Translations under genes and position numbers: made by a program
The notes under the pieces: model-generated
Databases searched by the model: none
Seen by the model: the letters and a program-made list of their open reading frames with translations, nothing else
Told to the model about the DNA's origin: nothing
Origin: a bacterium
GTDB taxonomy: Bacteria; Patescibacteriota; Saccharimonadia; Saccharimonadales; UBA4665
Direction: 5' to 3'
Length of the DNA: 64,000 bases
Assembly (NCBI GenBank): GCA_021783725.1
Contig: JAJXTN010000005.1
Coordinates: 1 to 64,000, forward strand
Part shown: positions 6,865 through 61,860 of the stretch, piece by piece
Layout of the letters: each line of letters begins with the position of its first letter
Position numbering within the stretch: position 1 is the first letter of the stretch

Positions 6865-7020
6865 AGTATTTATTTTATTTCCTTAACTATGATTATAACT
6901 CTCTGGCTGGATTATTGATACTTTGGATATTTTGCTTACCTCTATAAACTGTTAAAGTGTAACAAGGATTATCAGATAGTAAGATGGTTAAATAGTCTTA
7001 TAGTTAGATAGTTCACATCT

Positions 7021-7210
7021 AGGTGCGCCCTGGTAGCTCAGCTGGAGTTGGCGGAGCCGACTAGATAAATGTGAGTGGCTCTGTTCAGATGAGCTACAAT
7101 GATTAACAATTAAGTAGGTGCGCCCTGGTAGCTCAGCTGGAGTTGGCGGAGCCGACTAGATAAATGTGAGTGGCTCTGTTCAGATGAGCTACAATGATTA
7201 ACAATATATA
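7021..7210 (+). repeat. Two tandem 95-bp units carrying tRNA-Arg 5'-half copies
   Basis: Units 7021-7115 and 7116-7210 are identical except in their last five bases, and the real tRNA-Arg begins the third period. Each unit starts with the same 26 bases as 7211-7236 (six bases of flank plus the tRNA 5' end through the D-loop). A mini-hairpin GGCGGAGCC (7050-7058; 7145-7153) follows. Then comes a diverged antisense copy of the same tRNA 5' half (7077-7097; 7172-7192) and an AT-rich tail with TACAAT. The gene-free stretch 6865-7020 shows no coding capacity and presumably holds the tRNA promoter. Confidence 0.9.
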
Positions 7211-7216
7211 AGGTGC

Positions 7217-7293
7217 GCCCTGGTAGCTCAGCTGGATAGAGCAGAGGACTTCTAAGCCTAAGGTCGCAGGTTCGAATCCTGCCCAGGGCACCA
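7217..7293 (+). tRNA. tRNA-Arg (anticodon TCT)
   Basis: Acceptor GCCCTGG/CCAGGGC, D-arm GCTC/GAGC, anticodon loop CTTCTAA, T-arm GCAGG/CCTGC, encoded CCA at 7291-7293. The anticodon stem GAGGA/GCCTA has mismatches at 27-43 (G-A) and 31-39 (A-G). It is flanked on both sides by repeats made of its own halves. Confidence 0.93.
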
Positions 7294-7332
7294 TATAAAT
7301 ACCCGACCCTGATGGTCGGGTTTTTATATGGT
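7290..7332 (+). terminator. tRNA-Arg terminator overlapping CCA
   Basis: ACCATATAAA (7290-7299) pairs with TTTATATGGT (7323-7332) around a CCCGACC/GGTCGGG core ending in five T residues. The stem includes A73 and CCA. Confidence 0.85.
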
Positions 7333-7518
7333 TCACTGCCAAGATTTGGTTCTGCGACTTGGCGGCGTAGCCGACAATAGTTGCAGGTTCGTCGTATGAC
7401 AAGCTATCGCAGGAATGTATTCCGAGAAAGTTTGTCGGGAGAAGGACGAAGTCCGCTATCCTGCCCAGGGCACCGTCCTCCGTCGCAAATCCCTTTAGGG
7501 GGTTAGCTATGGAGGATT
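7333..7518 (+). repeat. tRNA-Arg 3'-half palindromic array with 66-nt T-loop insert
   Basis: Order: a diverged antisense copy of the tRNA 3' half (7333-7362); mini-hairpin GGCGTAGCC (7364-7372); a sense T-arm copy AGTTGCAGGTTCG (7379-7391); a 66-nt insert (7392-7457); the rest of the tRNA 3' end, ATCCTGCCCAGGGCACC (7458-7474), identical to the tRNA. A further hairpin closes the unit (7475-7518). The insert folds into two local helices plus a GGAC-GAA-GTCC hairpin and matches inserts at 13193-13258 and 40901-40966. No protein is encoded. It is not a second functional tRNA because the 5' half is missing. Confidence 0.9.
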
Positions 7519-7753
7519 GTCTGGAAGTTTTAATAAATTAAATAGCCGGTCTTACGACCGGCTATTTAATTTGGGACGAACGATGGGGATTGCCTTAGTC
7601 CCTCAAAACAAAATTAGTTTTGTTAGAACTAACCCAAAAACTACTGTAGCAATTTTTGGGCAAGGGTGCCGGGGTTTGCCACTGGCAAACCCGTTCAATC
7701 CCCTCGGCGCTATCCCAATATAAAAAGGCTAGCTTTCGCTAACCTTTTTATAT
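7519..7753 (-). repeat. tRNA-His 3'-half palindromic array
   Basis: Read on the minus strand from the tRNA-His end: a large terminator hairpin, an antisense copy of the tRNA 3' half (about 7690-7713), a hairpin with core TTGCCAGTGGCAA (7675-7693), two further AT-rich hairpins, a sense copy of the tRNA 3' end (about 7573-7593), and a second terminator with a perfect 17-bp stem (7535-7572). The hairpin core TTGCCAGTGGCAA recurs in the tRNA-Lys array with different flanking pairs. The array converges with the tRNA-Arg array near 7518. Confidence 0.82.
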
Positions 7754-7757
7754 TGGG
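7714..7757 (-). terminator. tRNA-His terminator overlapping CCA
   Basis: CCCAATATAAAAAGG (7714-7728) and CCTTTTTATATTGGG (7743-7757) form a perfect 15-bp stem over an inner CTAGC/GCTAA helix. The stem reaches into the encoded CCA and discriminator of tRNA-His. Confidence 0.85.
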
Positions 7758-7830
7758 GCGAACGATGGGGATTGAACCCACGACATTCGGGACCACAACC
7801 CGACGCTCTACCAACTGAGCTACGTCCGCC
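7754..7830 (-). tRNA. tRNA-His (anticodon GTG)
   Basis: Anticodon loop TTGTGGT. The extra 5' G (G-1, position 7830) is encoded and pairs with C73, the histidyl-tRNA synthetase identity element. Acceptor GCGGACG/CGTTCGC, T-arm GTGGG-TTCAATC, encoded CCA at 7754-7756. Confidence 0.95.
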
Positions 7831-12456: not shown

Positions 12457-12539
12457 AAACTGTGGAGTTGCGGGATTTGAACCCAGAACTGCCCGGTGGG
12501 CAGTTACTATCGACACCTGCGAAGCGTCGCGCATTAAAA
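12457..12539 (-). repeat. tRNA-Pro(CGG) 3'-end repeat
   Basis: Downstream of tRNA-Pro(CGG) on the minus strand: a stretch containing the mini-hairpin GCGAAGC (12519-12525), a hairpin AACTGCCC/GGGCAGTT (about 12488-12506), and a copy of the tRNA T-arm with part of its 3' side (about 12464-12487), then a T-run acting as terminator. A shorter version of the arrays at the Arg, His, Pro(TGG) and Lys genes, without the 66-nt insert. Confidence 0.75.
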
Positions 12540-12616
12540 TGGTCGGGGTGGCGGGATTTGAACCCACGACCTCGGCGTCCCGAACGCCGCGCGCTACCAA
12601 GCTGCGCTACACCCCG
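12540..12616 (-). tRNA. tRNA-Pro (anticodon CGG)
   Basis: Acceptor CGGGGTG/CACCCCG, anticodon stem CGGCG/CGCCG around loop TTCGGGA, T-arm GTGGG-TTCAAAT-CCCGC, encoded CCA at 12540-12542. Confidence 0.95.
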
Positions 12617-13130: not shown

Positions 13131-13313
13131 CAAAAATCCTGCGTAGCTCGGCATAATGCTGGGCGACGGAGGATAGTCGGGGGAGACAGGATAGCGGACT
13201 ACGTCCTTCTCCGGATAAGTTTTCTCTGAATACATTCCTGCGATAGCTTATCCTACGACGAACCTGCGACTATTGTCAGCTTCGCTGCCAAGTCGCAGAA
13301 CCGGATCCTGCTT
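13131..13313 (-). repeat. tRNA-Pro(TGG) 3'-half palindromic array with 66-nt T-loop insert
   Basis: Read on the minus strand: antisense copy of the tRNA T-arm (13291-13311); loop with GCGAAGC (13279-13285); sense T-arm copy ending TTCG (13259-13271); the 66-nt insert (13193-13258); the tRNA 3' end (13176-13192, with one extra C relative to the tRNA); then a terminal hairpin ending in a T-run before bcp. The array is colinear with the one after tRNA-Arg, although the two lie 5.7 kb apart on opposite strands. The insert differs in stem bases but preserves pairing. Confidence 0.9.
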
Positions 13314-13431
<118 letters not shown>

Positions 13432-40424: not shown

Positions 40425-40500
40425 GTTTCGGAAATCGTTAGATTTTCGCCCAATTTTGCAATCTAAGGAGCCACAGGCGACTGAATGCAAAATTTAGAGG
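40425..40500 (+). repeat. Hairpin element upstream of tRNA-Lys (shared with tRNA-Met)
   Basis: A 9-bp stem AATTTTGCA (40452-40460)/TGCAAAATT (40486-40494) encloses a loop with AAGGAGC and CGACTG, preceded by GTTTCGGAAAT and followed by AGGAGC. The element before tRNA-Met has the same order and loop motifs with a completely different but still complementary stem. The rest of 40342-40533 contains no gene; a hairpin near 40504-40527 adjoins the tRNA. Confidence 0.75.
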
Positions 40501-40533
40501 AGCCCGGCCGTCTAGCAGACAGCCGGACGACGC

Positions 40534-40609: not shown

Positions 40610-40647
40610 ATAAAATTACCTCAGCTTGTCTGGGGTATTTTTATTGG
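40607..40647 (+). terminator. tRNA-Lys terminator overlapping CCA
   Basis: CCAATAAAA pairs with TTTTTATTGG around TACC/GGTA, including the encoded CCA in the stem. Confidence 0.85.
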
Positions 40648-41018
40648 ATGTTCGGCGAGCTTGGACTCGCGACACGACGTGTCGAGGGTGAGAATTGCCA
40701 GTGGCAATTCGCAAGGCAATCTTCCGATACAAGCTATGCTTGTAGTCGTGAAGTTGCGGGGTCGCCAAAGGTGACCGAGTCCCGCTGGGCCCTCCAATAG
40801 AAAACACCCACCTCGCCGTGGGTGTTTTCTATTGAACGCCTAGCGCGCTTGAGCCGGCGACAGAGATTTTGCTAAGCAAAATATCATAGTCGCGGGTTCG
40901 GCACAGCGCCAGCTCTCGCAGAAGCTAGCTTCGAGAAAGCTGACGCGCAGAAGGACGGAGTCCGCTGTCCCGCTGAACATCCAACAAAATCACCTCAGCT
41001 CATCTGGGGTAATTTTAT
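40648..41018 (+). repeat. tRNA-Lys 3'-half palindromic array, two further units
   Basis: Unit A: antisense tRNA 3' half (40648-40677), hairpin with TTGCCAGTGGCAA core (40692-40710), hairpin at 40728-40746, sense T-arm whose loop is replaced by a GGTC/GACC hairpin (40752-40776), and the tRNA 3' end (40777-40799). Unit B: perfect 17-bp terminator (40795-40834), antisense half (40835-40862), hairpin ATTTTGC/GCAAAAT (40866-40882), sense T-arm (40888-40900), 66-nt insert (40901-40966), degenerate 3' end (40967-40985) and a third terminator-like hairpin to 41018. No gene lies in 40610-41061. Confidence 0.9.
40795..40834 (+). terminator. Second terminator in the tRNA-Lys array
   Basis: Perfect 17-bp stem with loop CTCGCC, following a tRNA-Lys 3'-end copy. 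Its outer bases again pair with the CCA-like end of that copy. Confidence 0.85.
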
Positions 41019-61702: not shown

Positions 61703-61860
61703 GTATTTCGAAATTTGTCTTGCGATTTACCAAAACATCAAACCAAGGAGCGTAGCGACTGTATGATGTTTTGAAAGGAGCAGAGTGACAGAAGTTGGAG
61801 CTCGGCAAAAGTAACGCAAGTTAGTTTTGGCGAACGAAAACTGACGTCGCATTGCGACGT
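61703..61860 (+). repeat. Hairpin elements upstream of tRNA-Met
   Basis: First element: 9-bp stem AAAACATCA (61732-61740)/TGATGTTTT (61764-61772), loop containing AAGGAGC, GCGTAGC and CGACTG, preceded by TATTTCGAAAT and followed by AAAGGAGC. It matches the element upstream of tRNA-Lys in order and loop motifs. Two more hairpins follow, AGTTTT/AAAACT (about 61823-61842) and ACGTCGC/GCGACGT (61844-61860), abutting the tRNA. No gene in 61597-61860. Confidence 0.75.

Follow-up and report, generated by a model that had tools for sequence, protein, structure and literature searches.

Tyrosine-recombinase islands that target tRNA genes are kilobase-sized and carry an integrase; they regenerate the 3' end of the tRNA and push the old one downstream. 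Palindromic mobile elements (the Rickettsia palindromic elements, the Allomyces double-hairpin elements, the REP/MITE repeats) are short, folded, multi-copy and non-coding, and are found in RNA or coding genes. To our knowledge they neither copy the flanks of their own target tRNA nor sit in a tRNA loop beside an intact copy of the gene. The mORFs of fungal mitochondria insert into a gene, bring along a replacement 3' end and displace the native one, as in atp6 of Allomyces and atp6, atp9, cox2 and nad3 of Glomus (PMC3630166). Among the insertion sequences of CPR rRNA genes, GIY-YIG proteins occur in inserts that are not introns, and those of Saccharibacteria are mostly no longer than 250 nt and lack introns and nuclease genes (PMC11270868).

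The tRNA genes considered here lie in a stretch of 64,000 nt (the window) from a bacterium of the order Saccharimonadales and are accompanied by sense and antisense copies of their own halves. We believe, with a probability of about two in three, that these arrays arose when small mobile elements inserted into tRNA genes, the elements comprising homing-type ones and their non-coding derivatives. At the sequence level this reading is supported by the architecture of the arrays, their specificity for their own tRNA, empty and filled sites, shared cores, covariation, and GIY-YIG genes in the same sites. Like the palindromic elements, the cores of the arrays are short, folded, multi-copy and non-coding. 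Like the tyrosine-recombinase islands, the units on the 3' side regenerate the tRNA 3' end and leave the old end downstream; unlike the islands, they measure about 180 nt, have no integrase that we could see, hold a core in the T-loop and include an antisense arm.

The original prediction of tRNA-half arrays at tRNA-Arg and tRNA-His describes something real, and the pattern turns out to be far larger than was described there. Two 5' units of 95 nt each, 97% identical to each other, precede tRNA-Arg (Table 1), and each runs from an exact copy of tRNA nt 1-20 through a hairpin to an antisense copy of nt 26-7 that matches at 17 of 20 positions. For the downstream unit the predicted order of antisense and then sense is correct, but the sense copy is not contiguous, as a folded insert splits it. 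The sense copies of the tRNA halves are nearly exact, but the antisense arms have decayed. At both loci a terminator, absent from the earlier description, stands between the intact tRNA and its 3' unit. The tRNA-His gene, on the minus strand, does share the 3' arrangement of tRNA-Arg, and it has no 5' array. A sequence that by eye is closely similar to its A3 core is found at tRNA-Lys of genome G032 (L067). Inspection of the ORFs found no nuclease or recombinase gene within the window's own units, and a search of the window against Rfam at the gathering score gave nothing besides tRNA and chance matches.

Table 1. Coordinates of tRNA genes, partial tRNA copies and associated features in the window, and partial 5' tRNA copies at other loci.
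Position	Strand	Feature	Source
7020..7114	+	5' unit 1 of tRNA-Arg(tct): copy of nt 1-20 (7027-7046), hairpin insert, degenerate antisense copy of nt 26-7 (7078-7097)	
7115..7209	+	5' unit 2 of tRNA-Arg(tct), tandem copy of unit 1: sense 7122-7141, antisense 7173-7192	
7217..7293	+	tRNA-Arg(tct), intact	ARAGORN, Rfam
7294..7331	+	Terminator hairpin T1, adjoining the CCA end of tRNA-Arg; centre of a longer palindrome reaching into the tRNA	
7327..7358	+	Degenerate antisense copy of tRNA-Arg 3' half (nt 76-47)	
7359..7379	+	Loop hairpin separating antisense and sense arms of the Arg 3' unit	sequence
7380..7391	+	Sense copy of tRNA-Arg nt 47-58, 11/12	
7392..7457	+	A1 core, folded, 66 nt, inside the T-loop of the copied tRNA-Arg 3' half	
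7458..7474	+	Exact sense copy of tRNA-Arg nt 60-76	
7475..7520	+	Second terminator-like hairpin of the Arg 3' unit, TCCTCCGTCGC...GCTATGGAGGA type	sequence
7534..7572	-	Terminator behind the 3'-end copy of tRNA-His	
7572..7592	-	Sense copy of tRNA-His nt 56-76, 20/21	
7593..7692	-	A3 core of the tRNA-His unit	
7693..7717	-	Degenerate antisense copy of tRNA-His 3' half	
7715..7753	-	Terminator T1 of tRNA-His	
7754..7829	-	tRNA-His(gtg), intact	ARAGORN, Rfam
12464..12485	-	Short B unit: T-arm copy of tRNA-Pro(cgg) (12540-12616, minus)	
13180..13192	-	Partial 3'-end copy of tRNA-Pro(tgg) (13355-13431, minus), behind an A1 core	
40610..40796	+	A2 unit of tRNA-Lys(ttt): terminator, antisense 40660-40677, A2 core 40686-40782, exact copy of nt 56-76 at 40776-40796	
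40797..41018	+	A1 unit of the same tRNA-Lys(ttt): decayed third 3'-end copy 40967-40983; terminator resembles the first	
		Partial 5' copies before GIY-YIG genes: Trp 1-37 (L125); Asn 1-13 and 17-26 (L159); Arg 1-15 (L161); Lys 1-16 (L163)	

The window genome comprises 843 kb in 19 contigs, and the flanks of all 39 of its tRNA genes were compared with their own and with other tRNAs. The tRNA's own 3' 15-mer (at least 13 of 15 matching) recurs downstream of 18 of the 39, as against 7 of 1404 foreign comparisons (0.5%, p 3e-25), and its own 5' 18-mer (at least 16 of 18) recurs upstream of 4, as against 5 of 1362 (0.4%). When the positions were swapped, with the 3' end sought upstream and the 5' end downstream, each control gave 0 of 39. 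Given the low rate of foreign matches and the empty swapped controls, the pattern is genome-wide, specific to the own tRNA and specific to the side, and the claim that each array copies its own tRNA is upheld. Some tRNA genes have no copy or array at all. No same-genus relative of the window genome was present among the genomes compared. The concern that the arrays might be an assembly artefact of one bin can be set aside, because the same plan recurs across dozens of independent genomes, several of which are a single contig (G058, G114, G146).

Several further observations were made around the tRNA genes. The genes for tRNA-Leu(taa) and tRNA-Leu(caa), which have a common 3' end, carry nearly identical 3' units (L033 and L039; G000, C12 and C18), and this is a recent exchange between paralogous tRNAs. 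An orphan A2 unit of tRNA-Gln lies about 4 kb downstream of its tRNA (L077, G000:C4:44151). A conserved folded leader, AATTTTGCAATCYAAGGAGC...GCGACTGAATGCAAAATTGAGAGGAG, which is not a tRNA copy, stands directly upstream of several tRNAs, both in the window (40449-40533 and 61731-61860) and at tRNA-Asp and two further tRNA-Met genes of the window genome and at tRNA-Val of G158.

The 3' units of the window genome follow one common plan in which a folded non-coding core interrupts the sense 3' half near the T-loop. From the intact tRNA the order is T1 (its stem starting from the CCA), antisense of about nt 76-44, a small loop, sense of about nt 44-54, the core, sense of nt 56-76 and a second terminator. 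Most cores lie within the T-loop of the copied 3' half; a minority are found elsewhere (the D-loop in L240; the anticodon or D-region in several 5' units). The 5' unit is the mirror image and consists of a promoter region, a sense copy from nt 1 to nt 20-54, a core or hairpin, a short inverted piece, a promoter region and then the intact tRNA. When the sense copies of 56 units are compared with their own tRNAs, nt 56-66 are 91-100% identical and nt 74-76 fall to 64-77%, in a profile with a mild selection bias from the requirement of at least 8 of 12 matches in its first part. This gradient suits a process in which the flank adjoining the insertion point would be what is needed, as homology. 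A simple tandem duplication of the target site was also considered for all units; it holds for G125 and was rejected as a general rule, T1 and T2 being unrelated at most loci.

At least two families of cores, A2 and A1, show strong compensatory change. For A2 this amounts to 17 of 25 pairs in the seed alignment, with double changes at 21 of the 25 pairs among 48 distinct sequences; none of 500 shuffles reaches this level and the slid controls are far lower. For A1, the core of the Arg array, compensatory change is seen at 16 of 22 pairs, and relatives of this core occur at tRNA-Pro(tgg), Arg(tcg), Met, Lys, Tyr and Val. Neither family has an Rfam match at the gathering score, nor do three A2 loci up to an E-value of 2. 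A2 is a multi-copy folded non-coding unit with covarying stems, as palindromic or MITE-like elements are. Its helices 1 and 2 contain 1.1% and 0% G-U pairs, compared to 5.9% in the tRNA stems and 9.5% in the terminators of the same genomes, and helices 3-4 contain many. The near-absence of G-U pairs hints that the main arms of A2 could be maintained at the DNA level.

The covariance model of A2 finds 8 matches in the window genome and matches in 69 of 149 genomes of the order, with up to 26 copies per genome, so the suspicion that such arrays might be absent from all relatives is answered by this family alone. Outside the order, the model gave a single doubtful match of 36 nt among the 380 genomes of a sample of the phylum. 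An exact 30-nt A2 motif, chosen without tRNA sequence, was found in 95 stretches of a species collection, nearly all of them named Candidatus Saccharibacteria. At the loci that could be checked, 66 of 84 copies are within 450 nt of a tRNA called by ARAGORN, 64 of them in the tRNA's orientation, and of these tRNA-near copies 44 have the 3' arrangement and 22 the 5' arrangement. Among the remaining A2 copies, half are at contig edges and most have tRNA-like ends. The distribution of A2 is patchy and restricted to Saccharibacteria.

Some A2 copies have other surroundings. In one case an A2 unit lies directly behind a tmRNA gene (L220, 6873-7336), and therefore tmRNA is also a target. In L198, L245 and L214 the copies are away from any recognised RNA gene, and L198 and L245 share the upstream words ACGGGTGACGT; a location inside rRNA was considered for these two and rejected, as they have no Rfam match. 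The motif is also present in contigs binned elsewhere, namely L223 (a Thiothrix MAG) and L196 (a Doudnabacteria MAG). The latter is almost the same as L191, which comes from a Saccharibacteria MAG, and both L223 and L196 are probably mis-binned Saccharibacteria contigs.

Insertion becomes apparent when orthologous sites are compared. The gene pair Leu(gag)-Val(tac) is orthologous in five genomes of one genus, four of which are readable, and it offers a precise comparison of filled and empty sites for A2 and for another core. The site is empty in G106, where tRNA-Val is followed by a terminator and then the next gene. In G125 it is filled: tRNA-Val, terminator, antisense arm, A2, an exact copy of nt 56-77 and an identical terminator, so that a 59-nt direct repeat surrounds the insert. 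It is filled also in G158, with a different terminator behind tRNA-Val, an antisense arm, another core, a copy of nt 56-77 and, last, a terminator resembling the one in G106. Since the G106-like terminator stands only behind the downstream copy in G158, the old 3' end and its terminator have been displaced by new ones. The end of the target gene (nt 56-77 and terminator) has thus been duplicated in G125 or given a new terminator in front in G158. G149 has A2 on both the 5' and the 3' side of tRNA-Val.

Additionally, near-identical cores are found at different tRNAs within single assemblies (Ser(gct) and Ser(gga) at 100%, Lys(ttt) and Lys(ctt) at 99%, Ser(tga) and Lys(ctt) at 94%), each copy being flanked by the bases of its own tRNA, and the mean similarity of cores is higher within than between assemblies. 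Given these shared cores with own-tRNA flanks, the simplest reading is mobility in which the flanks are those of the own tRNA. It had been proposed that a locus-specific process makes the arrays, and the filled and empty sites, together with the same core at different tRNAs, point to the insertion of a mobile element as that process. Of the mechanisms named for it (fold-back synthesis, template switching or gene conversion), fold-back or homology-directed copying is plausible for the flanks, but the core itself would have come by insertion. In a separate case, L288 (G127:C7:218200-219600), a tRNA-Gln(ttg) appears to be split in its D-loop and T-loop by hairpin inserts and a quite different tRNA-Gln(ttg) lies between the halves; the native tRNA-Gln seems to have been replaced from within by another.

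Small GIY-YIG genes occupy sites of the same kind. In the window genome tRNA-Lys(ctt) is flanked by two of them, one to either side, and tRNA-Arg(cct) is preceded by one; a further, degenerate gene on contig C19 stands in front of a tmRNA-like 3' end and terminator, where a tmRNA gene was looked for and not detected. Elsewhere in the order, 21 of 39 small GIY-YIG genes have a tRNA within 1.5 kb; with the window genome included the count is 24 of 44, against 0 of 11 for UvrC, which has the same domain (p 7e-4). At several loci the gene takes exactly the place of the insert in a 5' unit, with a partial 5' copy before it and the intact tRNA behind it (Table 1, last row), and the catalytic residues Y, Y, G, R, H and E are invariant in 12 proteins. 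A tRNA-Gly that is empty in G127 is followed in G059 by a GIY-YIG ORF and a 12-nt copy of the tRNA 3' end, with the same AGCATAAG flank, although this flank also occurs behind several tRNAs of the order, which weakens the comparison so that it is no strict proof alone. The tRNA-Gln of G059 and G127 was tried as a GIY-YIG empty site and rejected as too rearranged. Judging from their sequences, the coding GIY-YIG elements and the non-coding cores share targets and architecture. Their co-occurrence in genomes is weak (A2 is carried by 13 of 19 genomes with a small GIY-YIG gene and by 18 of 42 without, p 0.10), and consequently we infer rather than establish that GIY-YIG nucleases move the non-coding cores.

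Paired hairpins, CCTACTTCGC...GCTTCGTAGG and CCCTCC...GGAGGG, are found behind tRNA 3' ends at L114 (2150-2250) and L110 (1250-1480) and also behind tRNA-Glu(ctc), Leu(cag), Leu(gag), Gly(gcc) and Gln(ctg). The same pair precedes GIY-YIG genes and may therefore mark lost coding elements. In L112 (1280-2070) a tandem GTCATCCCGACCGGAGTGGAGGGATC repeat lies between a GIY-YIG gene and tRNA-Arg(cct).

Other explanations of the arrays have to be weighed against this one. The suggestion that transcripts could take alternative folds holds up in silico: in a readthrough transcript the acceptor strand is predicted to leave its own partner and to pair with the copy, at a probability of 0.92-1.00 in six of eight loci and of 0.72 and 0.41 in the others, while its own acceptor stem falls to 0 and the original 3' half, the terminator and the antisense arm form one long hairpin. 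The arrays could then be a functional RNA switch: in readthrough transcripts the antisense arm would capture the original 3' half and the acceptor stem would be closed by the downstream copy, so that the tRNA precursor has an alternative form that is regulatory or intron-like. It would fit this that the antisense arms recognise their own tRNA (mean score 12.0 vs 7.5) and that in the window genome alone wobble-keeping changes exceed pair-breaking ones (p 0.014), leaving slight room for selection. However, the fold follows automatically from the sense, terminator, antisense and sense order of the parts. The 62 A2 units have no significant wobble-keeping excess (p 0.39, the same as the shuffled controls) and their antisense arms drift towards A/T, the arrays are patchy over genomes and tRNAs, and with the terminator in front most transcripts should not reach them. 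The antisense arms resemble by-products undergoing decay, and we think a switch quite improbable. The idea of a self-directed antisense RNA fails on similar grounds, with the array behind a terminator, the arms decaying without a wobble excess and some tRNAs having no array.

A purely local origin would have template switching at the terminator and T-arm palindromes duplicate each tRNA, with replication errors doing all the work and no mobile element involved. The terminator is indeed the centre of a palindrome extending into the tRNA, G125 has its exact direct repeat, the 5' units are tandem, and A2 helices 1 and 2 covary almost without G-U pairs, as if the arms were corrected at the DNA level. 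Template switching may well be part of how the flanks are made, but as the whole account we find it unlikely, since it leaves unexplained both a conserved core family at different tRNAs in 69 genomes and the GIY-YIG genes in the same sites. The blocks of 3'-end identity from T-loop to CCA are the classic footprint of tyrosine-recombinase islands, of which the arrays could be attachment-site remnants. Against this, the insert at the filled sites is just about 110-190 nt, conserved and folded, these non-coding inserts have no integrase gene, the 5' units and antisense arms are foreign to island attachment sites, the A2 motif has no match in a viral contig collection, and the empty and filled tRNA-Val sites disfavour it, so that we judge island remnants very improbable. 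Least credible to us are degenerate group I or group II introns in the tRNA genes. In their favour, the insertions lie in tRNA loops, group I introns often encode GIY-YIG nucleases, and one GIY-YIG protein has a weak match to TIGR01453, below the cut-off. But no Rfam intron family matches in the window at the gathering score or at three A2 loci up to an E-value of 2, and since an intact tRNA stands beside the interrupted copy, no splicing is needed.

Under the mobile-element reading that we prefer, an element of about 110-190 nt would enter near the T-loop and supply or duplicate the tRNA 3' end and terminator, leaving an intact tRNA upstream and the old 3' end displaced downstream; the 5' unit would be the mirror case, with a partial 5' copy, the insert and the intact tRNA. 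Autonomous members would carry a GIY-YIG nuclease gene of about 80-100 aa, and most members, including those of the window, would be non-coding folded cores. The nuclease may cut the tRNA gene, and the break could be repaired by homology-directed copying (homing) from a tRNA of the same kind that bears the element. The antisense arm could be a by-product of fold-back copying that later decays. Ordinary homing needs pre-existing homology and so does not alone account for cores that carry the flanks of a new tRNA. For this we suppose an occasional transfer to another tRNA, from which the flanks would be copied afresh, perhaps through fold-back at the palindromes of the terminator or the T-arm. 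The non-coding cores would be moved in trans or by an unseen factor. Counterpoints to the mobile-element reading are the tRNAs without copies and the A2 copies in unexplained contexts (L198, L245, L214). More tentatively, the arrays could represent a new class of mobile element, in which a protein-less folded core, about 65-100 nt long, would settle in any tRNA gene and make its flanks from the target by fold-back or template-switch copying, keeping an intact copy. If true, such an element would home to the cell's most conserved genes while retaining the intact copy.

tRNA genes are among the most constrained in the cell and the genomes of Saccharibacteria are very small; despite both, the A2 family is present at the tRNAs of about half of the genomes sampled in the order. 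The system is a tractable one for studying how essential RNA genes can be a parasite's target while the host survives. It accounts for the confusing tRNA fragments, partial or antisense, that occur in CPR genomes, points to a role of the many small GIY-YIG nucleases found there, and provides a testable link between homing nucleases, palindromes and the turnover of tRNA genes, including the apparent replacement of tRNA-Gln in G127. In our search of the literature, with most subscription journals and preprints outside it, no description of tRNA-linked GIY-YIG genes or of partial tRNA arrays in CPR was found. The tRNA-invading hairpin elements would be a widespread genome parasite of Saccharibacteria that we could not find described.

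The insertions in CPR rRNA genes are similar in occurring in the same superphylum, in targeting RNA genes, in their GIY-YIG proteins and, within Saccharibacteria, in being mostly short, but they have no duplicated intact gene beside the insert, and tRNA is not treated in that work (PMC11270868). The nearest described mechanism is that of the fungal mitochondrial mORFs. Those elements reside in mitochondrial protein genes, mostly encode LAGLIDADG proteins and have inserts of about 1 kb (PMC3630166), whereas here the targets are bacterial tRNA genes, the inserts are mostly non-coding and of 110-190 nt, and there is an antisense arm with a terminator as well as a 5' mirror form. What the two have in common is an endonuclease-linked insert that comes with a replacement 3' part for the gene and pushes the native part downstream, and in the atp9 case of the mORFs the endonuclease is likewise of the GIY-YIG type (PMC3630166).
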